From Candidatus Bathyarchaeota archaeon (lineage in GTDB: Archaea; Thermoproteota; Bathyarchaeia; TCS64), in assembly GCA_014729945.1 (NCBI GenBank), contig WJJC01000090.1:1-10531 (forward strand): a DNA stretch of 10,531 bases, in the 5' to 3' direction. The position numbers and the translations under genes are program-made. Each line of letters starts with the position of its first letter. Positions within the stretch are counted from its first letter, which is position 1. The notes under the pieces are model-generated. The model did no database searches. It was not told where the DNA came from and was given only the letters and a program-made list of their open reading frames with translations. Shown here in pieces: positions 2-10,531 of this stretch.

Positions 2-949
2 CCTACAGGCGCAGGTAAAACCCTGCTACTAGAAACAATACAAGGATTCCACCAACTGGACAACGGCGAGATACTGCTCGACGGCACGGACATCACCATG
101 CTTCCTCAGCAGCAGCGTCGCATCGCCTATGTTCCCCAGAATCCAGTTTTCCCCCCTAGAAGCACGGTAAACCAGATACTTAGCTATGGCACAGACAGCG
201 TATACAGTGACGCCCAGAAGATATTGGACGGCATAACAGATATGATGCACCTAAAACCTCACCTAGAACGTACAGTTGTAACCCTCAGTGGCGGTGAGAA
301 ACGAAAACTAGCCCTAGCGCGAGCTCTAATTCAGCAGCCCAGAGTGCTCCTTCTGGATGAGCCTTTGAATAATTTGGACATCATCAGCCAGAAGAGTCTC
401 AGAGACGAGATACAGATGATCCATCGGTATCTGGATCTAACCACAATACACGTAACCCATAACCAGACCGAGGCCTTAACTATGGCAGACAAACTGGCTG
501 TCATACGAGAAGGCCAACTAAGAGCAACGGGAACCGTGGAACAGGTCTATAGTAATCCCATGGATGAATACGCTGCACGCTTCTTTGGGTACCGCAACAT
601 ATACCCTGTTGAAGAGTATCAGCACGGAGAACCGTACACTAAGGCAAACATAGGAGAAATAATTCTCCGAACAAGCCATGTTCCAGACATGAATCAGGAG
701 AAAATCGCCGTACACGGCGCCGAGATAATCCTCCACAGAAAAACGCCGGTAAACACGGGGGACAACCTTTTCCAGGGCACAGTTAAAGAGATAATCACTA
801 CAGGACCTATCACATATATAACCACGGACATCGGCGAGGATATCATCCTAACCATGGGCCGCAGAGCCGTAAAAGCCTCAAACCTCCACAAAGATGAACG
901 AATATGGGTACAGTTCAGCACCGACGCGGTAAAACCCATTAGATCCTAG
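2..949 (+). CDS. wtpC: Tungstate/molybdate-type ABC transporter ATP-binding protein, 5'-truncated
   Basis: This is the cytoplasmic ATPase of an ABC importer. The frame is already open at base 2, with Walker A (PTGAGKT) as the first visible residues, so about 35 N-terminal residues lie outside the window; 315 codons remain and the full protein would be near 350 aa, usual for the ModC/WtpC/PotA group. Further motifs in order are the Q-loop (YVPQNP), the signature LSGGEKRKLALARAL, Walker B (RVLLLDEP), the D-loop (NNLD) and the H-loop (THNQTEA). The last ~65 residues resemble a TOBE/MOP-type oxyanion-sensing domain. Walker A followed by LLLETIQGF is typical of archaeal tungstate/molybdate transporters, but sulfate or polyamine import cannot be excluded. 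The permease and binding protein are presumably upstream. It is separated from the hdr operon by two small genes. A tungstate supply would suit a W-dependent formate or formylmethanofuran dehydrogenase, which is inference only. Confidence 0.85.
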   Translation, partial: PTGAGKTLLLETIQGFHQLDNGEILLDGTDITMLPQQQRRIAYVPQNPVFPPRSTVNQILSYGTDSVYSDAQKILDGITDMMHLKPHLERTVVTLSGGEKRKLALARALIQQPRVLLLDEPLNNLDIISQKSLRDEIQMIHRYLDLTTIHVTHNQTEALTMADKLAVIREGQLRATGTVEQVYSNPMDEYAARFFGYRNIYPVEEYQHGEPYTKANIGEIILRTSHVPDMNQEKIAVHGAEIILHRKTPVNTGDNLFQGTVKEIITTGPITYITTDIGEDIILTMGRRAVKASNLHKDERIWVQFSTDAVKPIRS

Positions 950-1088: not shown

Positions 1089-1370
1089 TTGATACATGAA
1101 TATATGGAGAAACGAACAACAAAACCTGAGTACATCGAACCACTATTAAATACACTAAAAAAACTGGGAAAAACCGAAGAGGAAACATTATACGAACAAA
1201 CATATAAAACGATAAAAACAAAGCTATACCCCTCTGACAGAGCTATATTACCTAATGGAGAGCCAAGGTGGCGCTATCAGATGCAACATATGCTAGATGG
1301 ACTTGTTGAATCGGGTAAAATAATTAAAAAAGAAGGAAAAATCTGGGTTAATGAGAACCAGCGGAGCTAA
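1089..1370 (+). CDS. Small winged-helix-like protein (Mrr N-terminal-like)
   Basis: A 93-aa basic protein of unknown function. The TTG at 1089 gives the longest form; an in-frame ATG at 1104 (88 aa, starting MEKRTTK) is equally possible, and neither has a clear Shine-Dalgarno site. The N-terminal part is predicted helical (PLLNTLKKLG at 18-27). The C-terminal part, with LPNGEPRWRYQMQHML at 54-69, then GLVESGKIIKKEGKIWV at 71-87, has the pattern of a winged helix: a helix followed by a two-strand wing. It resembles the N-terminal winged-helix domain of Mrr-type restriction proteins, but there is no nuclease domain, so it may be a stand-alone DNA-binding protein. Its last 23 bp overlap the 3' end of the convergent gene. 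Codon use is much more A/T-rich than in the ABC gene upstream. Family assignment is tentative; that it is a real gene is fairly likely. Confidence 0.6.
   Translation: MIHEYMEKRTTKPEYIEPLLNTLKKLGKTEEETLYEQTYKTIKTKLYPSDRAILPNGEPRWRYQMQHMLDGLVESGKIIKKEGKIWVNENQRS
1326..1341 (-). terminator. Oligo-U terminator candidate for the minus-strand gene
   Basis: Read on the minus strand just past the stop codon at 1348-1350, the sequence contains a run of five T, then CCTTC, then a run of six T. Such U-tracts without a strong hairpin are the usual archaeal intrinsic terminator. The tract lies inside the coding region of the convergent plus-strand gene, where it encodes a Lys-rich stretch, so it may simply reflect that composition. 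Confidence 0.35.
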
Positions 1371-1839
1371 CCCATTCCTCAACATTACTAAGAGTAGGTG
1401 GCCGTTTAGTGATCCCTGTCTCCTCATTGATCTCCAGAAGTTTTTCGTAAAGCACCTCAGGATCCGCAGAGGCGATCTTATTGATACTATTATATCCCGC
1501 TTCTCTGAGTAACTCCTGATACTTAGGACCTACACCATCGAGTTCAGCGATATCTTTAAAATCTTCTTCAACTGCGTCATCATTATCCTCCTTTTCTCTT
1601 GACTCAGTGACTGATTCTTTCTCTTCTTTTGAAGACTGTTCCTCCTCTTGAAGTGCTTCTTCATTCATCTCTTCTTCATACTGGGCTTGATACTCGCTAA
1701 CTTTTATCACGTTTTTATCACTAGACTCCTCTCCAGTGCTGGGTAAAATCTCTTCATTTACATCTTCTTTTTTCTGTAGATAATAGAGTAAAGCACCTAG
1801 TATTACAGCAAATATAACAATTGTTAATAGTGGATTCAT
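1348..1839 (-). CDS. Membrane-anchored acidic protein with C-terminal helix-hairpin-helix domain
   Basis: A 163-aa protein on the minus strand. Residues 4-21 form one hydrophobic segment followed by LQKK, which by the positive-inside rule puts the C-terminus in the cytoplasm. Residues ~25-93 are a very acidic, Glu/Ser-rich linker without recognisable fold. Residues ~94-160 (DIAELDGVGPKYQELLREAG, then a helix containing ADPEVLYEKL) carry a helix-hairpin-helix motif with the GVGPKY turn, as in DUF4332/HHH_5-type domains, which often bind nucleic acid or act in protein contacts. The function is unknown. The ATG at 1839 is supported by a TATA-like box at 1871-1879. It faces away from the hdr operon and overlaps the small winged-helix gene tail-to-tail. 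A membrane-tethered nucleic-acid-binding role is inference. Confidence 0.75.
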   Translation of the reverse strand: MNPLLTIVIFAVILGALLYYLQKKEDVNEEILPSTGEESSDKNVIKVSEYQAQYEEEMNEEALQEEEQSSKEEKESVTESREKEDNDDAVEEDFKDIAELDGVGPKYQELLREAGYNSINKIASADPEVLYEKLLEINEETGITKRPPTLSNVEEWVSSAGSH

Positions 1840-2079: not shown

Positions 2080-2100
2080 TTATTATACTAATTGTACTCG

Positions 2101-2580
2101 ATGATCACTTCCAAGGAACTACTGGATAATCTAATCTCCGATGAAAAACTTGGATACTGTCAAAACTGTGGGGCTTGTACAGCAAGCTGTCCAATAGCTA
2201 AAGTAATGCCTGATAAATATAATCCAAGAAAACTCCTACAAAAGGTACACCTAGACCCAGATGAGACAGCTAAAACAGAAGATCTCTGGCTATGTGCATG
2301 GTGCTATAGATGTACTGAGAGATGCCCTCAAGGGATACAACCTACCGAAGTTTTTCTACTAACAAGAAACTTTGCAACCGATAAAGGGTTAATTCCCCCT
2401 AATCCTCGACAGATAATAAATGAGATATTAAAGTCGGGGCGCTCAATGCCCTATGATGAATTTATCGATGAACTGAGAGAGGATTATGGTTTACCACGAA
2501 TTGGCGCTATACCTGAGAAGATAATCAAAGAACAGAGATTGATTGCAGGAGACTACTTCATAGGGAAGGTGAAAAAATGA
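2101..2580 (+). CDS. hdrC: Heterodisulfide reductase subunit C (HdrC1)
   Basis: HdrC is the electron-wire subunit carrying electrons from HdrA to HdrB in the cytoplasmic HdrABC complex. Counting from the ATG at 2101 (159 aa), two [4Fe-4S] motifs are present: C20-C23-C26-C30-P (CQNCGACTASCP) and C65-C68-C71-C75-P (CAWCYRCTERCP). The NPRKLLQK segment between them and the LLTRNFA helix after the second cluster are typical of the family. There is no membrane segment, which rules out the DsrM/HdrE-type fusions. An upstream in-frame TTG at 2092 would add three residues; the promoter position favours ATG, and there is no Shine-Dalgarno site in front, consistent with a leaderless message. The stop codon overlaps the hdrB1 start (ATGA), so translation is coupled. 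It forms the first hdrCB pair of the operon and is distinct in sequence from HdrC2. Confidence 0.93.
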   Translation: MITSKELLDNLISDEKLGYCQNCGACTASCPIAKVMPDKYNPRKLLQKVHLDPDETAKTEDLWLCAWCYRCTERCPQGIQPTEVFLLTRNFATDKGLIPPNPRQIINEILKSGRSMPYDEFIDELREDYGLPRIGAIPEKIIKEQRLIAGDYFIGKVKK

Positions 2581-3461
2581 GTCTTGAATATTCTCTTTAT
2601 CCTGGATGCGTTGCTGCTACAAGAGAGATTGGCTATGAATTAGCTGTTAGAAATGTGTACAAACAACTGAATATTAAATTGAATAAAGTTGAAGATTTTA
2701 GCTGCTGTCAACCAGCATGCCTAGTACATAGTATAGATTATGTTAAGGGATTAGCGTTAACCAGTAGAAACCTTGCAGTAGCTGAAGAACTAGACCTCCC
2801 CATGATGACTCTATGTTCAAGCTGTTTTGGGAATCTCTCAAGAGCAAAATATCTTCTGGATACAAACTCAAAACTCAAGGAAGAGGTTAACAAATTACTG
2901 GGGAAAGCTGGGCGAGAATACAAAGGTACTGTTAAGATAGAACACGTCGTAACAACTCTATACAATGATTACACCTTAGATAAATTGGAAAAAACTATTG
3001 ATAACCCACTAGAAAAAATCAAGGTAGCCCCCTTTTACGGTTGTCACATATTTATGCCGGCTAAATACAGCAAGTTTGATGATCCTGAGCATCCAATAAA
3101 ACTTGATGAATTAATAGAAACTACGGGAGCTGAGTCTATAGATTACCCAGAAAAAACAAGTTGCTGTATAGGTTGCGGTAGCTTCTTCGGGAAGGTTTCA
3201 GAGGAGGCATCAGTCAAATTGGCTAAGAATATCCTCACCAGTGCCGCTGAGAAAAACGCTGACTGTGTAGTTACTACATGTCCCTTCTGTATTATGCAAC
3301 TTGAGATAGGGCAGATAAAGTTAAGAGAACATGACTTGAAATTCAATTTACCTATCCTACACTACGTGGATATATTGGGCTTATCACTGGGACTTAAGCC
3401 TGATGAACTTGGGTTCGATTTACGGCGAGTAAACATATCCCCTCTTTTATCCAAGGTGTAG
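2577..3461 (+). CDS. hdrB: Heterodisulfide reductase subunit B, variant CCG motifs (HdrB1)
   Basis: HdrB holds the two noncubane [4Fe-4S] clusters at which the disulfide is reduced. This 294-aa protein has the normal length and both five-cysteine sets: C11, C43-C44, C80, C83 and C156, C196-C197, C235, C238. It differs from canonical CCG-domain proteins because the glycine after each Cys pair is replaced: the first reads CCQPAC and the second CCIGCG. This places extra cysteines (C48 and C200) next to the cluster ligands. Residues 156-157 (CH) and the CPFC near 235-238 are as expected. The start ATG overlaps the hdrC1 stop and is preceded by GGTG. The physiological disulfide is unknown; with no methanogenesis genes seen, CoM-S-S-CoB should not be assumed. 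The ten ligands argue that it is functional. Confidence 0.93.
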   Translation: MSLEYSLYPGCVAATREIGYELAVRNVYKQLNIKLNKVEDFSCCQPACLVHSIDYVKGLALTSRNLAVAEELDLPMMTLCSSCFGNLSRAKYLLDTNSKLKEEVNKLLGKAGREYKGTVKIEHVVTTLYNDYTLDKLEKTIDNPLEKIKVAPFYGCHIFMPAKYSKFDDPEHPIKLDELIETTGAESIDYPEKTSCCIGCGSFFGKVSEEASVKLAKNILTSAAEKNADCVVTTCPFCIMQLEIGQIKLREHDLKFNLPILHYVDILGLSLGLKPDELGFDLRRVNISPLLSKV

Positions 3462-3516: not shown

Positions 3517-4026
3517 ATGATTTCTAGTGATACGGAAGCTGATTCGGAGATATGGGCGCTTGAGGAAGCAGTTTGGAGGATGCATAGTGAGGTTTGTGAT
3601 CAATGTGGAAAATGTTCATCAGCCTGCCCAGTATCAAAGGAGATAGAAGGGTTCAACCCGAGACAACTAGTGACTAGAATTGCCTTAGGTCATATAAATG
3701 AGGTATTGGATGAGGACGCTATATGGACATGTACAACGTGTCTAAAATGTAGAGAACGTTGTCCCGAGGAGATATCACCTTATAATATTATTCTAGCTTT
3801 GAGGAACTTGGCTTATCGAATGGGATTAAACTATCCGATTGGTTATGATGATTTTATTAACGGAATTCTTGAGCGTGGATATATTTCCAGTCCTCACTCG
3901 GTTAGGACGAGAACCGGTGAAAGGGTTACACGTATCACTTTAGAGCTACCGGAGCCTTCTGTGCCTATGAAGATGAACGCCTTCAAGGGAAATCTAGAGG
4001 AAATTTTGAGGGTGGGTAGTGACTAG
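3517..4026 (+). CDS. hdrC: Heterodisulfide reductase subunit C (HdrC2)
   Basis: This is a second HdrC, 169 aa, with two [4Fe-4S] motifs: C27-C30-C33-C37-P (CDQCGKCSSACP) and C72-C75-C78-C82-P (CTTCLKCRERCP). It shares the family layout with HdrC1: an FNPRQLVTRI segment between the clusters and an LALRNLAYRMG helix after the second. Its N-terminal ~25 residues are longer and acidic, and its C-terminal tail differs, so it is an old paralogue and not a recent copy. The ATG at 3517 is preceded by GGGATGG a few bases upstream; a nearer out-of-frame ATG at 3510 hits a stop after five codons. The stop codon overlaps the hdrB2 start by one base. It probably delivers electrons to HdrB2, but which HdrC pairs with which HdrA cannot be read from the sequence. 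Confidence 0.93.
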   Translation: MISSDTEADSEIWALEEAVWRMHSEVCDQCGKCSSACPVSKEIEGFNPRQLVTRIALGHINEVLDEDAIWTCTTCLKCRERCPEEISPYNIILALRNLAYRMGLNYPIGYDDFINGILERGYISSPHSVRTRTGERVTRITLELPEPSVPMKMNAFKGNLEEILRVGSD

Positions 4027-4907
4027 TGAAATACGCATTATACCTTGGATGTACGGTTCAGACAGAGCAGTATGCTCTTGAGGCATCCGTTAGAGAAATC
4101 ATGCCTAAATTAGGCATTGAGTTAAGTGATATGAGTAATACTAGCTGTTGTGGATTTCCCGCTTTTAGCAGTATATCCCAAGAAGCTTGGATATATTTAA
4201 CAGCTAGGAATCTTGCTGTAGCTGAACATATGGGGTGCCCTGTTTTACCTCTATGTAATGGCTGTCATCTATCCTTCATCGAAACTAAGCATTATTTGGC
4301 TGAGGATGAGGTATTGAAAAACAAAATAGATGAAAAGTTAGCTAAAGAAGACTTATCTTATACTGGGGATGTTGAAATAGTTCATTTACTAGAATTATTA
4401 CATGATGTAATAGGTTCAGAGAAAATCCGTGCCTCTGTATCTAATCCTCTGAAAGACCTTTTAATTGCAGCTCATCCTGGGTGTCATGTTATAAGACCAT
4501 CAGAGCTCCAAAAAGTGGATAACGCTGAAGATCCCCAGAAGCTGGATGATTTAATAAAAGCGATTGGAGCAGAGACATTTGATTACCCCGAGAAAATAGA
4601 TTGCTGCGGTAGTCAGTTAGCTGTAGCCTCTGGGCGGAGTACGTTAAAGATAGCGGGAGAGAAGCTTCAGAAGGTTAAATCATATGGTTTTGATGGGGTC
4701 ACAACTACTTGTCCATTTTGCTTTAAAATGTATGATGCCCGACAACGGGCCATAATGGGAACGATGAGAGATCGTTCATTGACTATACCCGTTTTTTACT
4801 ATACTCAGTTATTGGGGTTATCTATGGGTATTGAGCCAGAGAGACTAGGTTTGATGATGAATCGAAGCCCGGTTGATGAGATAATTAAACAGATATTGGA
4901 GAAATAA
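4026..4907 (+). CDS. hdrB: Heterodisulfide reductase subunit B, canonical (HdrB2)
   Basis: This second HdrB (293 aa) has two CCG domains with complete ligand sets at nearly the classical positions: C9, C41-C42, C77, C80 and C153, C193-C194, C229, C232. Both Cys pairs are followed by glycine (CCGFP and CCGSQ), unlike HdrB1. PGCH at 151-154 and TTCPFC at 227-232 are typical. It starts with GTG at 4026, inside the hdrC2 stop codon; GGGTGG at 4010-4015 is a suitable ribosome binding site. The C-terminal YYTQLLGLSMGIEPERLG matches the equivalent end of HdrB1, showing that the hdrCB pair was duplicated as a unit long ago. It is presumably the site of disulfide reduction in the complex; the substrate is unknown. 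Confidence 0.94.
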   Translation: MKYALYLGCTVQTEQYALEASVREIMPKLGIELSDMSNTSCCGFPAFSSISQEAWIYLTARNLAVAEHMGCPVLPLCNGCHLSFIETKHYLAEDEVLKNKIDEKLAKEDLSYTGDVEIVHLLELLHDVIGSEKIRASVSNPLKDLLIAAHPGCHVIRPSELQKVDNAEDPQKLDDLIKAIGAETFDYPEKIDCCGSQLAVASGRSTLKIAGEKLQKVKSYGFDGVTTTCPFCFKMYDARQRAIMGTMRDRSLTIPVFYYTQLLGLSMGIEPERLGLMMNRSPVDEIIKQILEK

Positions 4908-4909
4908 AA

Positions 4910-6214
4910 ATGGAAAAACCAGTACTAGTAATCGGTGGAGGTGTTGCTGGCATACAGGCATCACTGGATCTAGCTGACAGAGGTTTAAAAGTACACCTTG
5001 TAGAGAAATTACCCTCAATAGGAGGTGTAATGGCTCAATTAGACAAGACATTTCCCACTATGGATTGTAGTATATGTATACTAGCGCCAAAAATGATTGA
5101 ATGCTTTAGACACCCGAATATAACTATTCACACTCTTAGCACCGTTAAGGACTTAGATGGTGAGGAAGGAAATTTTTCCGTTACAATTCATAAAAAACCA
5201 AGATATGTGGATGAGACCAAATGCACTGGATGTGGAATATGTTCAGAGAAGTGTCCTACCCGTATCAAAGATGATTGGCAGGAAGGATTAACAGATAAGA
5301 AGGCTATCTCGATAATGTTTCCCCAAGCGGTTCCCTTAGTGGCTTACATCGATAAAGATAATTGTCTTTATTTCCAAAAGGGTATATGTCAAGTATGTAG
5401 CAAGGTATGTCCAGCGGGTGCAATTGATTATACACAGTCAGATATATATGAAAAAATAAATGTTTCAAGCATAATCGTAGCAACCGGGTTCCAAGAGTAT
5501 GATCCTGTTGAACTTGCAGAATACGGATATGGTAGATATGATGACGTAATCACCGCCATGGAGTTTGAGAGACTAGTATGTGCTTCAGGACCAACCCATG
5601 GACACCTCAACAGACCTAGTGATGAAAAAATAGCTAAAAGAATAGCCTTTGTCCAATGTGTTGGTAGCAGGAGCCAGCAGAAAGGGTATCCGTATTGCAG
5701 TAGTGTCTGCTGTATGTACGCTACAAAAGAATCAGTTTTAATAAAGGAACATGACCCAGAGAGTGATGTAACTATATTTTATCTGGATCTCAAAGTATTT
5801 GGTCAAGGGTTCCAAGAGTTCGTGGATCGCGCTGAAAATCAATATGGAGTGAAATATATCAGAGGAAGACCGGGTGAGATCCGTAAAGATCCGATCACAA
5901 ATAATCTGAACGTATGGTATGAGAATACTGCAAATGGTGAGGTAGGAGAAAAAGAGGTTGATCTTGTTGTATTGGCTAGTAATATGGAGGCTCGTCCCGA
6001 GAACAAGGAACTAGCGGACGTACTTGGATTAGAATTAGATGAATGGGGCTTCTTCCAGCCAAAAGACAACATTACACACCCCATCGAGACTAAGAAACCG
6101 GGTATATTTATGTGCGGATGTTGTCATGGCCCCAGAGATATTCCTGAATCGGTTGCGGAAGCAAGTGGTTCAGCGGCTTGTGCCGCAGAGGTCGCTAGGA
6201 GGTATGCTCAATGA
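4910..6214 (+). CDS. hdrA: Short HdrA-like flavoprotein with inserted ferredoxin (HdrA1, split form)
   Basis: HdrA binds FAD and distributes electrons in the Hdr complex. This 434-aa protein begins directly with the thioredoxin-reductase-like FAD domain (GGGVAG at 9-14) and has the HdrA hallmark DKTFPTMDCSIC (45-56). A ferredoxin insert follows with C105-C108-C111-C115 and a wide-spaced second motif C152-x7-C160-x2-C163-x3-C167. Then come QCVGSR (249-254), YCSSVCC (262-268) and a C-terminal FAD segment with CGCCHGP (402-408). Compared with methanogen HdrA (about 650 aa), it lacks the ~130-residue N-terminal Fe-S domain and the C-terminal ferredoxin. Those parts are present in HdrA2, immediately downstream and translationally coupled by ATGA. 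GGAG at 4897-4900 supports the ATG. It probably forms a heterodimer with HdrA2; this is inference from domain complementarity. Confidence 0.93.
   Translation: MEKPVLVIGGGVAGIQASLDLADRGLKVHLVEKLPSIGGVMAQLDKTFPTMDCSICILAPKMIECFRHPNITIHTLSTVKDLDGEEGNFSVTIHKKPRYVDETKCTGCGICSEKCPTRIKDDWQEGLTDKKAISIMFPQAVPLVAYIDKDNCLYFQKGICQVCSKVCPAGAIDYTQSDIYEKINVSSIIVATGFQEYDPVELAEYGYGRYDDVITAMEFERLVCASGPTHGHLNRPSDEKIAKRIAFVQCVGSRSQQKGYPYCSSVCCMYATKESVLIKEHDPESDVTIFYLDLKVFGQGFQEFVDRAENQYGVKYIRGRPGEIRKDPITNNLNVWYENTANGEVGEKEVDLVVLASNMEARPENKELADVLGLELDEWGFFQPKDNITHPIETKKPGIFMCGCCHGPRDIPESVAEASGSAACAAEVARRYAQ
6197..6203 (+). promoter_or_regulatory. Shine-Dalgarno site of hdrA2
   Basis: AGGAGGT ends 7 bases before the ATG at 6211, inside the hdrA1 coding sequence. 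It fixes the hdrA2 start at the ATGA overlap and shows that translation of the two split HdrA halves is directed separately and not by frameshift. Confidence 0.7.
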
Positions 6215-7893
6215 GTAAAGACATTAGAATAGGTGTTTTCGTATGTCACTGTGGAATTAACATAGGTGGATACGTAGATGTTCCTGATGTTGTAGAGTAT
6301 TCTGAGAATTTGAATGATGTAGTATACGCTGAACCCAATCTCTATACCTGTTCGTCCGATGGTTTACAGAAGATACAAGAAGCTATCAAGAAACATGATC
6401 TAAACCGAGTCGTAGTAGCTTCATGCACTCCAAGGACACATGAACCATTATTCCAGTCAGCGTGCGAGGAAGCAGGATTAAACAAGTACTTGTTTGAGAT
6501 GGCGAACATAAGAGACCAGTGTAGCTGGGTTCACATGCACGAACCAGAAAAAGCCACCGAGAAGGCCAAGGACTTAGTAAGAATGGCAGTCGCCAAGGCA
6601 AGGCTACTAACACCGGAGGAGGAGCCAGAGATCGAGATACAACCAGTTGGACTAATTATAGGAGGAGGCGTATCCGGTATAACTGCATCATTGTCTTTGG
6701 AGGATCAAGGATTCAATGTTCACCTCGTTGAGAAGACAGATAAACTTGGTGGTATATTGAATGACTTAGATTCTCTTTTCCCATCTAACAAGAAAGCTAA
6801 TGATGTCATTAACCCCTTAATAGATCGGATAGCAGATAGTAAGAATATTAACGTCTATTTGAAGTCAGAGATAGAAAAAATAAAGGGATTCATTGGAAAC
6901 TTTGATGTCGATATTAGGGGAAGAGGTCAATCGATCCCAATTAACGTGGGAACAATTATACTGGCAACAGGCGCAGAGTATCTTGAGCCAGTTGGTTTAT
7001 ACGGATACGATGAAATAGAGCGAGTTGTAACACAGAAAGAACTTGAAGATAAGATACGGAAAAAACAACTTGATGATGTTAAGAAAATTGTTATGATCCA
7101 GTGCGTGGGTGCAAGAAACGAGGAAAGACCATATTGTTCAAGAATTTGCTGTAGCGAGGCGATGAAGAACGCAAAATTACTAGCTGACGAAGACCCATAT
7201 CGGGATATCTACATACTTTATAGGGATCTCCAAACTTATGGTTTAGAATATACAGAGATGGAGTGGAACGCCAAACAGAGTGGAGTAAAGCTCCTGAAAT
7301 ATGAAAAGGATCGTCCCCCGGTCGTGGAGAATATCCCTAATGGTCAAAAAGTATCATTATTTTCACCCCTTCTGGGCACGGAGTTAACAATAGAATCCGA
7401 TATGGTAGTTCTCAGCGTACCCCTGATCCCTAACCCTGATAACAAGAAATTATCCCAGTTACTTAAGGTTCCAATAAACTCAGATGGGTTCTTTATGGAG
7501 GCACACGTAAAACTACGTCCAGTGGATTTTGCTACAGATGGAGTATATGTATGTGGTACAGCTCACAGCCCAAAGGAAGTAGCTGAGAGTATCTCACAGG
7601 CAAAGGGGGCTGCCTCAAGAGCTGGAATACCTATGGCGAAGAGAACCTTAAAGACAGCAGCATATTCCAGTGTTGTGGATGAGACGAAATGCAGTGGGTG
7701 CGGAACCTGTATAGAAGTATGTCCCTATAATGCAATTTCAAAGAACGAGAAAGGTTTAGCAAAGGTAACAGCCGCTGTTTGTAAAGGCTGTGGTGTATGT
7801 GGAGCAAGCTGTCCTGAGAAGGCAATAACAATGAGACATTTCACCAATGAGGAAATAGATGCACAGGGATTAGCAGCCCTTAGGGAGGCCTAA
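6211..7893 (+). CDS. hdrA: HdrA-like flavoprotein without inserted ferredoxin (HdrA2, split form)
   Basis: A 560-aa HdrA paralogue complementary to HdrA1. Residues 1-130 are the N-terminal Fe-S domain of HdrA: VCHCGINIGG (11-20), YTC (47), ASCTPRTHEP (70-79) and DQC (104). The FAD domain starts at GGGVSG (151-156). Where HdrA1 has DKTFPTMDCSIC, this protein reads DLDSLFPSNKK: the Cys pair is gone, and so is the whole inserted ferredoxin. QCVGAR (297-302), YCSRICC (308-314) and CGTAHSP (448-454) are kept. A C-terminal two-cluster ferredoxin follows: C494-C497-C500-C504 and C524-C527-C530-C534, ending in the HdrA-type tail MRHFTNEEIDAQ. The N-terminal cluster and the C-terminal ferredoxin make it the probable contact point for MvhD, which is encoded next. 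Whether its FAD is bound and active is uncertain. Confidence 0.93.
   Translation: MSKDIRIGVFVCHCGINIGGYVDVPDVVEYSENLNDVVYAEPNLYTCSSDGLQKIQEAIKKHDLNRVVVASCTPRTHEPLFQSACEEAGLNKYLFEMANIRDQCSWVHMHEPEKATEKAKDLVRMAVAKARLLTPEEEPEIEIQPVGLIIGGGVSGITASLSLEDQGFNVHLVEKTDKLGGILNDLDSLFPSNKKANDVINPLIDRIADSKNINVYLKSEIEKIKGFIGNFDVDIRGRGQSIPINVGTIILATGAEYLEPVGLYGYDEIERVVTQKELEDKIRKKQLDDVKKIVMIQCVGARNEERPYCSRICCSEAMKNAKLLADEDPYRDIYILYRDLQTYGLEYTEMEWNAKQSGVKLLKYEKDRPPVVENIPNGQKVSLFSPLLGTELTIESDMVVLSVPLIPNPDNKKLSQLLKVPINSDGFFMEAHVKLRPVDFATDGVYVCGTAHSPKEVAESISQAKGAASRAGIPMAKRTLKTAAYSSVVDETKCSGCGTCIEVCPYNAISKNEKGLAKVTAAVCKGCGVCGASCPEKAITMRHFTNEEIDAQGLAALREA
6397..6600 (+). repeat. Near-identical DNA patch shared with hdrA3 (copy 1)
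   Basis: This part of hdrA2 aligns without gaps to 10174-10377 in hdrA3 (offset 3777). It contains a 49-nt exact match (6485-6533 with 10262-10310), and 6481-6600 differs at only 9 of 120 bases. One divergent segment (about 6451-6480) interrupts the patch. Outside it the two genes differ at most third codon positions. Confidence 0.85.
7883..7888 (+). promoter_or_regulatory. Shine-Dalgarno site that fixes the TTG start of mvhD
   Basis: GGGAGG lies 8 bases before the TTG at 7897, overlapping the last codons of hdrA2. The residues translated from this TTG (MTNFEPKIVGYLCNWCSYAG) match the usual MvhD N-terminus, and no ATG lies nearby in frame, so TTG is the likely start. Confidence 0.7.
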
Positions 7894-7896
7894 AAA

Positions 7897-8664
7897 TTGA
7901 CGAACTTTGAACCTAAAATAGTCGGATATCTATGTAACTGGTGTAGCTACGCTGGAGCCGATCTATCTGGGGTTAGCAGGATTCAATATCCTCCCAATAT
8001 TAGAATAATAAGAGTCATGTGCAGTGGAAGAGTGGAGCCATCAATGCCCTTAAATCTACTTATCAATGGCGCTGATGGTGTGATGGTAACAGGGTGTCAC
8101 ATAGGCGACTGTCATTATATAACGGGTAATCTCCACGCCAAGAGAAAATTTACTCTACTCCGGAAACTGGTGGAAAAGACAGGTATGAGTCCAGAGAGAG
8201 TAATGCTTGAATGGGTATCAGCCAGCGAGGGGCAGAAATTCGCAAATCTAGTCAAAGACTTCACAGAAAAGATAAAGAATCTTGGACCTAATCCCGTTGA
8301 AGATAACCCCGAGTTATTACTTAATCTGAAAGCAGCAAAATTGGTCTCTGATGAGACAAGACTACGTAGTTTTGTTGGAAAAGAAGAAAAATTGGTTACT
8401 GAGGGGAACGTCTACGGTGAGGTTTACACTGAGGAAGAGTTTGATAATATAATGGAAGATGCATTAGAAGACGAATATATTCGAAACAAAATAAGAATAA
8501 TCTTAAACCAGAAACCTCAATCCGTTAAAGAAATCGCTGAAAAAATACGAGTTGATACAAAGGATATCCTAGAACATATTGTAGTGATGCGTCAAAGAGG
8601 CTGGATAGATTTGGATGAAATAACCGGTCAGACTCCCGTTTACCGTATAATGGAGGTTGCTTAA
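7897..8664 (+). CDS. mvhD: MvhD/FlpD-type electron-transfer protein with C-terminal winged-helix extension
   Basis: MvhD carries a [2Fe-2S] cluster and passes electrons from a hydrogenase or formate dehydrogenase to HdrA. The N-terminal ~130 residues of this 255-aa protein are the MvhD domain with all expected cysteines: C13 and C16 (CNWC), C42 (MCSGR), C67 and C72 (GCHIGDCHY). Typical MvhD is about 140 aa. The extra ~120 residues comprise a charged, mostly helical linker (130-190) and a predicted winged-helix domain (about 200-252; SVKEIAEKIRVDTKDILEHI, then MRQRGWIDL and a wing ending VYRI). The start is TTG, supported by the GGGAGG site. It lies 3 bp after hdrA2 and directly abuts hdrA3, so it could serve either HdrA form. 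No hydrogenase or formate dehydrogenase catalytic subunit is visible to identify its electron donor. Confidence 0.9.
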   Translation: MTNFEPKIVGYLCNWCSYAGADLSGVSRIQYPPNIRIIRVMCSGRVEPSMPLNLLINGADGVMVTGCHIGDCHYITGNLHAKRKFTLLRKLVEKTGMSPERVMLEWVSASEGQKFANLVKDFTEKIKNLGPNPVEDNPELLLNLKAAKLVSDETRLRSFVGKEEKLVTEGNVYGEVYTEEEFDNIMEDALEDEYIRNKIRIILNQKPQSVKEIAEKIRVDTKDILEHIVVMRQRGWIDLDEITGQTPVYRIMEVA

Positions 8665-10531
8665 ATGGAAAAGAACGGGGCCGTCCTAATAGTAGGAGGA
8701 GGAATAGCTGGTATACAGGCAAGCCTAGACTTAGCTGACTCTGGTTTCAAGGTATACTTGATGGATAAAGAACCCACTATCGGAGGCATCATGACCCAAT
8801 TGGACAAGACTTTCCCCACCAATGACTGTGCTATGTGTATTTTAGCCCCAAAACTTGTGGGAGCAGGCAGGCATCATAACATTGAGCTACTCACATACAG
8901 CGATCTCGTGGATCTAAGAGGTAAGGAAGGAAACTTCACAGCGGTAATTACAAGAAAAGCTAGAAGAGTTGACCCAGAAAAATGTACAGGGTGTGGTGAC
9001 TGCGCGAAAAAATGCCCTGTAGAAGCAATTGATGAATACAATGAAGGATTTGGCGCGCGTAGTAGTAGCTATATAAAGTATCCTCAAGCCGTTCCATTAG
9101 TAGCGACAATAGATAAGACCAAATGTATTGGATGCGGTATCTGCGCAGAGGTATGCAAAGCAGACGCAATTATTTATGAAGAGGAGACAGTTGAGAAAGA
9201 AATAGATGTAGGATCAGTTATTCTCTCACCTGGTTTCAAAGCTTTTGATCCCTCGAAATTAACTGAATATGGTTATGGAAGGTATCCAAACGTCGTATCT
9301 AGTATGGAGTTTGAACGAATACTTAGCGCGACAGGTCCGTACAGAGGAGTAGTAATGAGACCAAGCGACGGAGACCTGCCCAAGAAGGTAGCTTTCCTCC
9401 AGTGCATCGGTTCAAGAGATGAACGAATAGGAAACCCCTATTGCAGTGGAGTCTGCTGCATGTATGCAATAAAGGAGGCTGTTATCGCTCAGGAGCACAA
9501 CGAAGGTCTTGAGGCATCCATATTCTTCATGGATATGCGTGCCTTTGGTAAAGAATTCGATGATTACTATACACGAGCAGAGGAAGAGCATGGTATAAGA
9601 TTTATCCGTTCAAGAATAGCCTCAACAACCCAGAACCCGGATACCCGAGGTGTAATACTAAGCTATGAGAAAGAAGGTGAGATAGTCGAAGATGAGTTCG
9701 ACATGGTTGTTCTTAGCGTCGGGTTGAGTCCTCCGGAAGACGCTCAGAAACTCGCTGAATCCATAGGTATCAAATTAAACAAGTATGGGTTTGCTGAAAC
9801 AAGTATATTTGAGCCACTGGAGACCAGCAGACCAGGAGTATATGTCTGCGGAGCGTTCCAGGGACCAAAAGATATACCTGACAGCGTAGCACAGGCAAGC
9901 GGAGCAGCCGCTAAGGCATCAAAGAGCATTGCTTCAGCTAGGGGTACAATGGTATCTAAACTTGAGTACCCAGACGAGAAGGATGTAAGCTCAGCTGAGC
10001 CACGAATAGGAGTATTCGTCTGTCACTGTGGGATCAACATAGGTGGCGTGGTTGGCATAAGCAGTGTTGTAGAGTATGCTCGTCAATTACCAAACGTTGT
10101 ATTTGCTGAGGAAAATCTATACACCTGCAGTCAGGATACTCAGGAGAATATCAAAGAGAAGATTATCGAAAACGATCTAAACAGAGTCATAGTAGCTTCA
10201 TGCACTCCAAGGACACATGAACCACTATTCAGAGCTACCCTTAGGGAAGCAGGTTTAAACGAGTACTTGTTTGAGATGGCGAACATAAGAGACCAGTGTA
10301 GCTGGGTTCATATGCATGAACACGAGAAAGCCACCGAGAAGGCCAAGGACTTAGTAAGAATGGCTGTAGCCAAAGCAAGGCTCTTGGAGTCCTTGAAGAA
10401 GCATATCATTGAGACAACTCCTATAGGCCTTGTTATCGGTGGGGGATTGACAGGTATGACCGCTGCACTAGATATAGCTGATCAAGGCTATGATGTGCAT
10501 TTGATTGAACGGACAGACAAACTTGGTGGTA
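8665..10531 (+). CDS. hdrA: Fused double HdrA flavoprotein (HdrA3), 3'-truncated by the window edge
   Basis: The open frame begins with ATG directly after the mvhD stop, with GGAGG at 8652-8656, and runs off the window after 622 residues. Residues 1-~425 correspond to HdrA1: GGGIAG (11-16), DKTFPTNDCAMC (47-58), a ferredoxin insert with C107-C110-C113-C117 and C154-C157-C160-C164, QCIGSR (246-251), YCSGVCC (259-265) and CGAFQGPKDIP (395-405). After a ~20-residue linker, residues ~447-575 are the HdrA N-terminal Fe-S domain (VCHCGINIGG at 452-461, YTC 488, ASCTPRTHEP 511-520, DQC 545) and a second FAD domain begins at GGGLTG (592-597), as in HdrA2. The order is thus HdrA1-like plus HdrA2-like in one chain; the full protein should approach 1000 aa and may end with a ferredoxin. 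The second ferredoxin motif is CIGCGICAEVCK, unlike the wide-spaced motif of HdrA1. Confidence 0.92.
   Translation, partial: MEKNGAVLIVGGGIAGIQASLDLADSGFKVYLMDKEPTIGGIMTQLDKTFPTNDCAMCILAPKLVGAGRHHNIELLTYSDLVDLRGKEGNFTAVITRKARRVDPEKCTGCGDCAKKCPVEAIDEYNEGFGARSSSYIKYPQAVPLVATIDKTKCIGCGICAEVCKADAIIYEEETVEKEIDVGSVILSPGFKAFDPSKLTEYGYGRYPNVVSSMEFERILSATGPYRGVVMRPSDGDLPKKVAFLQCIGSRDERIGNPYCSGVCCMYAIKEAVIAQEHNEGLEASIFFMDMRAFGKEFDDYYTRAEEEHGIRFIRSRIASTTQNPDTRGVILSYEKEGEIVEDEFDMVVLSVGLSPPEDAQKLAESIGIKLNKYGFAETSIFEPLETSRPGVYVCGAFQGPKDIPDSVAQASGAAAKASKSIASARGTMVSKLEYPDEKDVSSAEPRIGVFVCHCGINIGGVVGISSVVEYARQLPNVVFAEENLYTCSQDTQENIKEKIIENDLNRVIVASCTPRTHEPLFRATLREAGLNEYLFEMANIRDQCSWVHMHEHEKATEKAKDLVRMAVAKARLLESLKKHIIETTPIGLVIGGGLTGMTAALDIADQGYDVHLIERTDKLGG
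10174..10377 (+). repeat. Near-identical DNA patch shared with hdrA2 (copy 2)
   Basis: This is the hdrA3 counterpart of 6397-6600. It covers the ASCTPRTHEP cluster motif and the conserved helices that follow. Synonymous positions are largely identical, in contrast to the flanking FAD-domain codons from about 10395 onward, where nearly every codon differs from hdrA2. Confidence 0.85.

Follow-up and report, generated by a model that had tools for sequence, protein, structure and literature searches.

Why should one operon encode HdrA twice over, once divided between two adjacent genes and once fused into a single long chain? The question is raised by a stretch of Candidatus Bathyarchaeota DNA (contig WJJC01000090.1 of assembly GCA_014729945.1, the whole 10,531 nucleotides of which are referred to here as the window), in which hdrC-hdrB-hdrC-hdrB-hdrA1-hdrA2-mvhD-hdrA3 form an unbroken plus-strand run from position 2092 to the window end, the genes being closely spaced or overlapping from the second hdrC onwards. 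HdrA1 and HdrA2 probably make up an asymmetric HdrA dimer, in which each chain supplies the modules that the other lacks, and HdrA3 is likely to be a one-chain form of the same layout. Domain anatomy, conservation and gene order are observed directly, whereas the heterodimer, its electron path, the linking role of MvhD and H2 as donor are inferred from sequence. The modules of flavin adenine dinucleotide (FAD)-binding HdrA and the genes around them are distributed over the window as follows.

2092..2580, plus strand: hdrC of the first pair, with two 4Fe-4S motifs (TIGR03290, E 4.5e-30, below the curated cut-off)
2577..3461, plus strand: hdrB of the first pair, with two CCG domains (PF02754, 2.4e-20, in two stretches; TIGR03288, 9.8e-80, below cut-off)
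3517..4026, plus strand: hdrC of the second pair (TIGR03290, 2e-24, below cut-off)
4026..4907, plus strand: hdrB of the second pair, with two CCG domains (PF02754, 2.4e-24, in two stretches; TIGR03288, 1.2e-76, below cut-off)
4910..6214, plus strand: hdrA1, 434 residues, FAD/TrxR core with inserted ferredoxin, without N-domain and without C-terminal ferredoxin
5066..5077, plus strand: DCxxC motif of HdrA1; C53 and C56 are Cys194 and Cys197 of HdrA (offset 141 to 5odc_A)
5204..5422, plus strand: inserted ferredoxin domain of HdrA1, second motif C-x7-C-x2-C-x3-C
6211..6214, plus strand: ATGA overlap of hdrA1 and hdrA2
6211..7893, plus strand: hdrA2, 560 residues, N-domain, TrxR core and C-terminal 2[4Fe-4S] domain, without inserted ferredoxin and without Cys197
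6211..6624, plus strand: N-terminal Fe-S domain of HdrA2, by alignment to 5odc_A
7669..7833, plus strand: C-terminal 2[4Fe-4S] domain of HdrA2 (PF14697, 6.1e-10)
7897..8664, plus strand: mvhD, long form, FlpD domain (PF02662, 4.3e-52; Foldseek to 5odc_D, 2.8e-14) with a 119-residue winged-helix tail
8305..8661, plus strand: winged-helix tail of the long MvhD (PF21476, 6.8e-5, below cut-off; AlphaFold2 model; ArsR-type Foldseek matches)
8665..10531, plus strand: hdrA3 (fused HdrA), open at the window end, 622 of about 1000 residues
8665..9939, plus strand: HdrA1-like half of HdrA3, with Cys197 and inserted ferredoxin, no N-domain (boundary from the model of the relative P0002)
9940..9999, plus strand: linker between the halves of HdrA3 (boundaries from the P0002 model)
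10000..10531, plus strand: start of the HdrA2-like half of HdrA3, N-domain and then second FAD motif, the remainder lying beyond the window

The initial annotation of this DNA had read HdrA1 as a FAD core with an inserted ferredoxin and no terminal Fe-S module, and HdrA2 as a chain with both terminal modules but neither the inserted ferredoxin nor a DCxxC pair; alignment to known structures bears out both descriptions. The alignment of HdrA1 to HdrA (9sfi_A) spans residues 143-562, the inserted ferredoxin among them, and corresponds to the extent over which chains 8rvu_a and 8rwn_A were modelled (about 149-575 of HdrA; 8rwn is the Hdr core alone). HdrA2 aligns to residues 3-237 and 315-642 of 5odc_A and skips the inserted-ferredoxin stretch. 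The site that reads FPTMDCSICI in HdrA1 reads FPSNKKANDV in HdrA2, so that the DCxxC motif, whose second cysteine is residue 197 of 5odc_A, is gone. All three window proteins match NCBIfam HdrA models with E values of 4e-109 to 9e-226, a resemblance that is therefore not due to chance, at scores below the curated whole-protein cut-offs, which is what chains that are split or cut should give. They carry the GxGxxG FAD motif and four cysteine ligands of the HdrA superfamily, the TrxR-domain ligands at 386/399/403/404 being CCCC in HdrA1, HdrA2 and the N-terminal half of HdrA3, together with E356 and K409 (Lys273 of HdrA1). None of them is a canonical homodimeric HdrA with all four modules on one chain: HdrA1 and HdrA2 are each incomplete, and HdrA3 has two cores. 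The tandem hdrA1-hdrA2 places Cys197 and the N-domain on different copies, as in complementary tandem HdrA, and HdrA3 has the second FAD motif (residues 589-622) of type II, or fused, HdrA, the rest of its C-terminal half being judged from relatives. In HdrA1, residues 152-167 hold a 5-residue insertion in the second inserted-ferredoxin motif, the standard form of which is also missing in many HdrA1-like halves of the survey described below.

Within HdrA3, an HdrA1-type pattern is followed by an HdrA2-type pattern, in the order first described for it; the unseen end is judged from the relatives P0002 (88% identity over the window part) and that of locus L111 (79%). In an AlphaFold2 model of the full fused relative P0002, built on a 79-row alignment (pLDDT 91.8, pTM 0.92), residues 1-425 superpose on HdrA 140-568 at 1.1-1.3 Å, residues 444-996 on HdrA 2-651 at 2.7 Å (5odh) and residues 446-997 on 7bkb at 2.1 Å; the match of the second half to 7bkd is 7.1 Å. 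The joint between the halves lies at about 426-445, close to the linker at about 425-446 with which the hdrA1/hdrA2 junction had been equated. An inserted ferredoxin in the second half of HdrA3, which would have undone the complementarity, is rejected as far as relatives tell, the last ~380 residues of HdrA3 itself lying outside the window: there is none in P0002, in L111 or in any of the 59 fused C-halves surveyed, three of which are cut before their end. P0002 and L111 have G and T, respectively, at position 409, a site that in HdrA3 lies beyond the window.

The same division of modules recurs widely. A scan of genome contigs with HdrA1 yielded 78 loci (numbered from L001 onwards) from the best 80 of 590 matches, a sample biased to the HdrA1 family, and survey counts refer to these loci plus the window; 19 HdrA pieces stand outside the class table (12 classed as 'other', 6 that were cut or ambiguous and 1 that was uncertain), and a 933-residue misfit protein of L078 was dropped from the fused counts for both halves. 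Open reading frame (ORF) starts taken from six-frame translation were over-called in GC-rich L001, L049 and L003, and in L001 and L049 the sequence itself was used to place the real start of hdrA. All 25 single HdrA1-type proteins have Cys197 and the inserted ferredoxin and lack the N-domain and the C-terminal ferredoxin. All 27 single HdrA2-type proteins have the N-domain and lack Cys197, and 22 show the full pattern; the exceptions are three without a visible C-terminal ferredoxin (two run off the contig) and two with an inserted ferredoxin. Fused first halves show the full HdrA1 pattern in 62 of 63 cases, the remaining one being unreadable at Cys197, and have no arm in 63 of 63; fused second halves have the N-domain and lack both Cys197 and the inserted ferredoxin in 59 of 59, three of these being cut before the C-terminal ferredoxin. 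Cys197 therefore lies in the first half of 62 of 63 fused chains (1 unreadable) and in the second half of none of 59, with loci of anaerobic methanotrophic (ANME)-2 archaea and Methanoperedens included. Canonical HdrA proteins of the same loci have all four modules (17/17, mostly by class definition). Fused genes occur in 58 loci of 12 named phyla, including Chloroflexota and other bacteria. The nearest genome loci are those of Bathyarchaeota metagenome-assembled genomes (MAGs), L001-L003, with HdrA1 identities of 79, 75 and 68%. The order hdrA1-hdrA2-mvhD-hdrA3 is found side by side in L001, L002, L003, L006, L014, L016, L049 and the window, so that the co-occurrence of both forms, once singled out as the most striking feature of this operon, is real but recurrent: it is seen in at least 8 of 23 adjacent split pairs, some of which are cut by contig ends.

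Several variants were seen in the same loci. A different split, into an N-domain protein of ~161-176 residues beside a core of ~440-448 residues with inserted and C-terminal ferredoxins, is present at L018:13988-15823 and L024:2703-4571. Fused HdrA occurs in photosynthetic-type Chloroflexota (Chloroploca, Oscillochloris, Viridilinea; L046, L054, L056, L057, L064, L072). Some C-halves have CCRxGC in place of CSRxCC as their TrxR cluster motif, which looks like a three-residue shift of one ligand (L017, L020, L033, L046, L047, L054-L057, L060-L062, L064, L068, L071, L072, L074, L077); loss of the cluster in C-halves of Chloroflexota, Thermoplasmatota, L017, L020 and L033 is not claimed, one ligand having seemingly moved.

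How such a divided HdrA could work is suggested by the symmetric enzyme of Nomura et al. (2025; PMC12350162), in which each HdrA contributes a mobile arm, comprising N-domain, C-terminal ferredoxin, MvhD and donor, that serves the FAD core of its partner. According to the legend of Extended Data Fig. 5 there, the electrons brought by the arm arrive at FAD' of the partner HdrA'; the one of high potential exits via HA4', and HA3 of the arm takes the one of low potential to HA5'. In this published model electrons pass from MvhD to FAD', from where one travels via the TrxR-domain cluster' to HdrC-HdrB and the second via the C-terminal ferredoxin of the arm to the inserted ferredoxin'. The role of Cys197 is taken from the account in PMC9012536. 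Because the published arm acts in trans, the split can be understood as leaving the arm on HdrA2 and the bifurcating core on HdrA1: HdrA2 would be the sole arm and the site of electron input, while HdrA1 would be the sole complete receiving core (Cys197, inserted ferredoxin, bifurcation residues) and the ferredoxin outlet. The reverse route, with the arm on HdrA1 and inserted ferredoxin and Cys197 on HdrA2, would be gone, one of the homodimer's routes having been deleted; HdrA3 would hold the same half-site scheme inside one chain. MvhD stands where this path would place it. The gene after hdrA2 is mvhD in 16 cases, and there is a fused MvhD domain in 3 and an MvhD-HdrC fusion in 2 (together 21 of 25 readable), and in the survey MvhD is never directly 3' of, or fused to, HdrA1. 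An obligate heterodimer with divided labour had been proposed from the outset; pairing and division appear well supported by complementary loss, gene order, the position of mvhD and the published trans mechanism, whereas a non-bifurcating FAD in HdrA2 is unproven.

The long MvhD would be the likely link between the two forms, with the arm of HdrA2 on one side and the core of HdrA3 on the other. It is a genuine MvhD/FlpD protein with the conserved [2Fe-2S] cysteines, C13, C16, C42, C67 and C72 being invariant in 17 long MvhD, and its 119-residue tail adopts a winged-helix fold in the AlphaFold2 model, with ArsR-type Foldseek matches (E about 0.01-0.03, probability about 1); it may serve as a docking piece. 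Long tails are carried by 17 of 86 MvhD ORFs (15 sequences), and an HdrA1-like core lies directly 3' of all 17 (15 by script, 2 via the true start) versus 3 of the 69 other MvhD (p 3e-15, the loci being related and the events not independent). Because the first loci had been fetched by HdrA1, a tail-only search was made of 201 genomes of the class of genome G001, with a match in 48 and 57 matches in total, of which the best 50 were analysed; six of these are also in the first survey. Tail-bearing MvhD were seen in the window, in the 15 sequences of that survey and in L081-L144. Directly after the long MvhD comes a core-first HdrA in 48 of the best 50 (30/30 and 18/20). One of the two misses is a broken locus (L135); in the other, L133, no HdrA follows the long MvhD within a 4.3 kb stretch, which counts against such a link and against the asymmetric reading as a whole. 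The gene before the long MvhD shows an HdrA-type 2[4Fe-4S] domain in 49 of 50, L135 being unread, and is an HdrA in 18, a GltD/NfnB-type flavoprotein in 29 and a ferredoxin-domain piece only in 2.

These neighbourhoods raise the possibility that the split pair and HdrA3 are cross-paired in one assembly, the arm of HdrA2 and the long MvhD serving the core of HdrA3 (or the arm of HdrA3 serving HdrA1) in a two-stage cascade and not as two enzymes on their own. We consider this a serious contender that falls somewhat short of being probable. It would account for the position of the long MvhD, which nearly always has a core-first HdrA on one side and, on the other, a gene whose product ends in an HdrA-type C-terminal ferredoxin, and for a 5' slot that a GltD-type flavoprotein occupies in 29 of 50 loci of the class; neighbouring genes need not, however, encode proteins that touch, the long MvhD could just belong to the upstream enzyme, its tail being regulatory, and at L133 no HdrA follows within the stretch analysed. 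Put more generally, and with the same reserve, the locus might encode a plug-in electron cascade: a core module of fused HdrA, short MvhD, HdrCB and [NiFe]-hydrogenase would offer the winged-helix-tailed MvhD as a second docking port, into which one of two partners would plug: a NAD(P)H flavoprotein of GltD type that ends in an HdrA-type ferredoxin, or an entire second HdrA bifurcation module, namely the split pair together with its own HdrCB.

The occupant of the slot is seen best in 14 longer stretches, which share the plan (GltD-Fd or hdrA1-hdrA2)-mvhD long-hdrA fused-mvhD short-hdrC-hdrB-mvhG-mvhA, with GltD in first place in 12 and HdrA in 2. The NAD(P)H flavoprotein of GltD/NfnB type that replaces hdrA1-hdrA2 in L112-L123 has ~577 residues and an HdrA-like C-terminal 2[4Fe-4S] domain (e.g. 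L116:7645-9375, minus strand). GcvH-like genes lie near it (L112-L123, e.g. L117:4249-4836) and recall the lipoate-binding proteins of sulfur-oxidising Hdr-like clusters. A GcvH-like protein as lipoyl substrate for HdrB was discarded, as the L117 copy reads ETWMFMFDLYAPVSG, without a lysine at what we take to be the lipoyl site of GcvH. In L004 and L006 (8487-9986 in each), HdrC is fused to a GltD-type flavoprotein (499 residues) directly 5' of hdrA1.

Judged by these relatives, the window operon would run on to a second mvhD, hdrCB and mvhGA. Both mvhG and mvhA are present in 11 of the 14 longer stretches, one of them in 2 and none in L112, and hdrC is uncalled in L111 and L124. L111, the closest of the longer stretches to the window by its tail, has VhuA- and VhuG-like genes (below curated cut-offs), L014 has both hydrogenase genes downstream, and the L001 genome has a hydrogenase gene on the same contig, 6.2 kb past the tail, all of which points to a window operon that probably ends in a hydrogenase, with H2 as the probable electron donor. 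A NiFe hydrogenase is found in 9 of 10 genomes around key loci. No mcrA (PF02249) was found in 10 related draft genomes of unstated completeness, and CoM-S-S-CoB is therefore a candidate and not an established oxidant of HdrB, despite both CCG domains; a comparable gap as to the disulfide is noted for one Bathyarchaeia MAG in PMC7886697.

If the arm acts in trans as mapped above, a weaker constraint is predicted on the second core. Over 314 paired columns the first core is indeed more conserved than the second (Wilcoxon p 2e-4). On the rows of a quick tree (HdrA1-like, n=69; HdrA2-like, n=80), K409 is kept in 69/69 HdrA1-like versus 68/80 HdrA2-like rows, with 0 versus at least 6 changes; three of the latter are to R, and the other three cover 8 rows (N, T, S, E, G, A). 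All 17 canonical HdrA proteins keep K409. Among protein-database matches of the first search, pattern matching finds it in 117 of 117 first halves and 81 of 113 second halves, halves with an unmatched K409 motif being left out of pattern counts, and alignment of the same set finds it in 86 of 118 second halves.

A number of observations weigh against this interpretation. Three of the six changes are to arginine, which leaves three to clearly different residues. In the new matches of a search with the C-half the contrast is weak (K409 by pattern in 40/40 N-halves and 36/38 C-halves), and the survey loci were fetched by HdrA1 similarity with patterns covering the K409 region, which favours K409 in HdrA1-like halves. 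K409 is retained in 50 of 59 C-halves of the survey loci and, near the window, in the split HdrA2 of 108 of 109 readable relatives (11 more are unread) as well as in the window's own; E356 is present in 27 of 27 split HdrA2, so that the FAD of HdrA2 may still bifurcate. Furthermore, the HdrA2-type proteins of L023 and L067 retain an inserted ferredoxin, and an MvhD-HdrC fusion gene lies just 5' of hdrA1 in L007, L013 and L036.

The same residues, K409 and E356 in HdrA1 and HdrA2 of the window and in most C-halves, would be expected if both FADs of each pair or fused chain bifurcated. Each protein would then perform two bifurcations, a suggestion made for type II HdrA by Lyu et al. in the discussion of PMC12054007. 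We nevertheless regard it as unlikely. Under the published trans path the second core would have neither an arm nor a ferredoxin outlet, the C-half lacking the inserted ferredoxin in 59/59 and the first half lacking the arm in 63/63 (one misfit excluded), and the changes at K409 (at least 6, 3 of them to R) fall in HdrA2-like and never in HdrA1-like halves. Still less can be said for HdrA1 and HdrA2 being unpaired, that is, working as homodimers or with other partners, in which case HdrA1 would resemble the short HdrA found in the Hdr-like systems of sulfur oxidisers. One small protein of this kind, a single HdrA-like chain of core-only fold, does exist (6tjr_A), and HdrA1 alone has a FAD motif and the TrxR cluster ligands; the 6tjr subunit, however, has 349 residues and is too short for the inserted ferredoxin that HdrA1 retains. 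We know of no arm partner for it. Each of the two proteins has lost modules that the other retains, the fused chains of about a dozen phyla combine these two halves in one constant order, and wherever the 3' neighbour of hdrA1 is readable (24 cases) it is hdrA2 (23) or, at a contig end, an N-domain fragment (1), all of which makes unpaired proteins very improbable.

The shared domain order and adjacency of pair and fusion could also reflect a recent local duplication and fusion with no separate function, a scenario that is scarcely credible, as a forced clade of HdrA1 with HdrA3-N (window, L001-L003, P0009) is rejected (delta lnL 148.9, p-AU 1.6e-5); the fused N-halves as one clade are not rejected (p-AU 0.317). 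The quick tree (SH-aLRT support, midpoint root) keeps HdrA1-like and HdrA2-like halves apart, with canonical HdrA and the HdrA2-type proteins of L023 and L067 on the HdrA1 side; split HdrA1 as one clade is likewise not rejected (p 0.176). The rejected clade rules out hdrA3 as a recent local fusion of hdrA1-hdrA2 and marks it as an old paralogous module that did not arise by fusing the genes beside it; pair and fusion are ancient paralogs that came to lie together. HdrA3 can hence be called the covalent equivalent of the pair, as had been suggested, in the sense of sharing its layout, but not in that of descent. A single clade of fused N-halves, not being rejected, would fit the single fusion origin proposed by Lyu et al. 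in PMC12054007.

Complementary tandem and fused HdrA are already in print and widespread (PMC9012536, PMC12054007), and the complementarity idea of the initial annotation, sound as it is, had been anticipated there. For ANME archaea, the text of Chadwick (2022; PMC9012536) describes the tandems HdrA5/HdrA6 and HdrA12/HdrA13, in which, as here, one copy has the N-domain and lacks Cys197 and its partner has Cys197 and lacks the N-domain; a heterodimer is proposed there, not shown. The window differs from the ANME tandems in being Bathyarchaeota-like DNA, in having relatives in which no mcrA was found, and in adding to the pair a fused HdrA within one operon, with an MvhD that bears a winged-helix tail in between. 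HdrA3 is like the fused HdrA3/HdrA4 of Chadwick, which are the type II HdrA of Lyu (2025; PMC12054007), in its about 1000 residues, two TrxR domains and HdrA1-like plus HdrA2-like halves. Type II is described by Lyu as a fusion of classes A6 and A12, and the genome set of that paper is defined by mcrA or mcrA-like genes. Chadwick's text has the N-domain half first in fused HdrA3/4, whereas here the Cys197 half is first, including in ANME-2 (L040) and Methanoperedens; the loci that bear on section 15 of PMC9012536 in this respect are L026-L043, L053, L059, L065 and L076.

Other systems share parts of the design. Two-HdrA-domain fusions like that of HdrA3 are reported across Asgard lineages and TACK phyla in PMC11237513, the accessible portion of which holds no analysis of split/fused neighbourhoods or half-sites. 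The HdrABC-MvhADG and Elp-Hdr enzymes of methanogens (5odc; PMC12350162) have the same domains, cofactors and MvhD, but the enzyme described in the latter is, unlike the window proteins, a symmetric homodimer of full-length HdrA with two arms and two cores. The HdrA of MetVF-HdrCBA-MvhD in Sporomusa ovata and Moorella, as presented in PMC9430772, has two TrxR domains and, like fused HdrA, no inserted ferredoxin in its second half. In S. ovata the E/K pair (E160, K216) is found in only one TrxR domain, a published parallel to the one-sided change at K409; these proteins differ from those of the window in being linked to methylene-tetrahydrofolate reductase, and in Moorella in having a GltD insert. 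In the open-access literature we found no mapping of the trans arm with a one-sided K409 change onto split or fused HdrA, no winged-helix-tailed MvhD before a fused HdrA and no slot common to a split HdrA pair and a GltD flavoprotein.

Upstream of the operon, the window encodes a WtpC-like (tungstate-type) ABC ATPase (2-949, plus strand) and a DUF4332 helix-hairpin-helix protein (1348-1839, minus strand). The plasmid records compared with the window gave no match, and promoter and terminator scans of the window stayed near the shuffled level and are uninformative for an archaeon.

Bifurcation by HdrA has been solved in symmetric dimers, in which identical half-reactions mask which parts cooperate. 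Split and fused HdrA resemble natural deletions of one half-reaction, and make the arm-in-trans model testable by single-chain mutations that are impossible in a homodimer. If the cascade were true, two bifurcation stages would be arranged in series in one assembly in the lineage of the window, each using only one of the two half-sites that the ancestral homodimeric HdrA possessed. An MvhD with such a tail, preceded by a slot whose occupant can be exchanged, suggests how H2, NAD(P)H and ferredoxin might be coupled in anaerobic archaea in which methyl-coenzyme M reductase was not detected.

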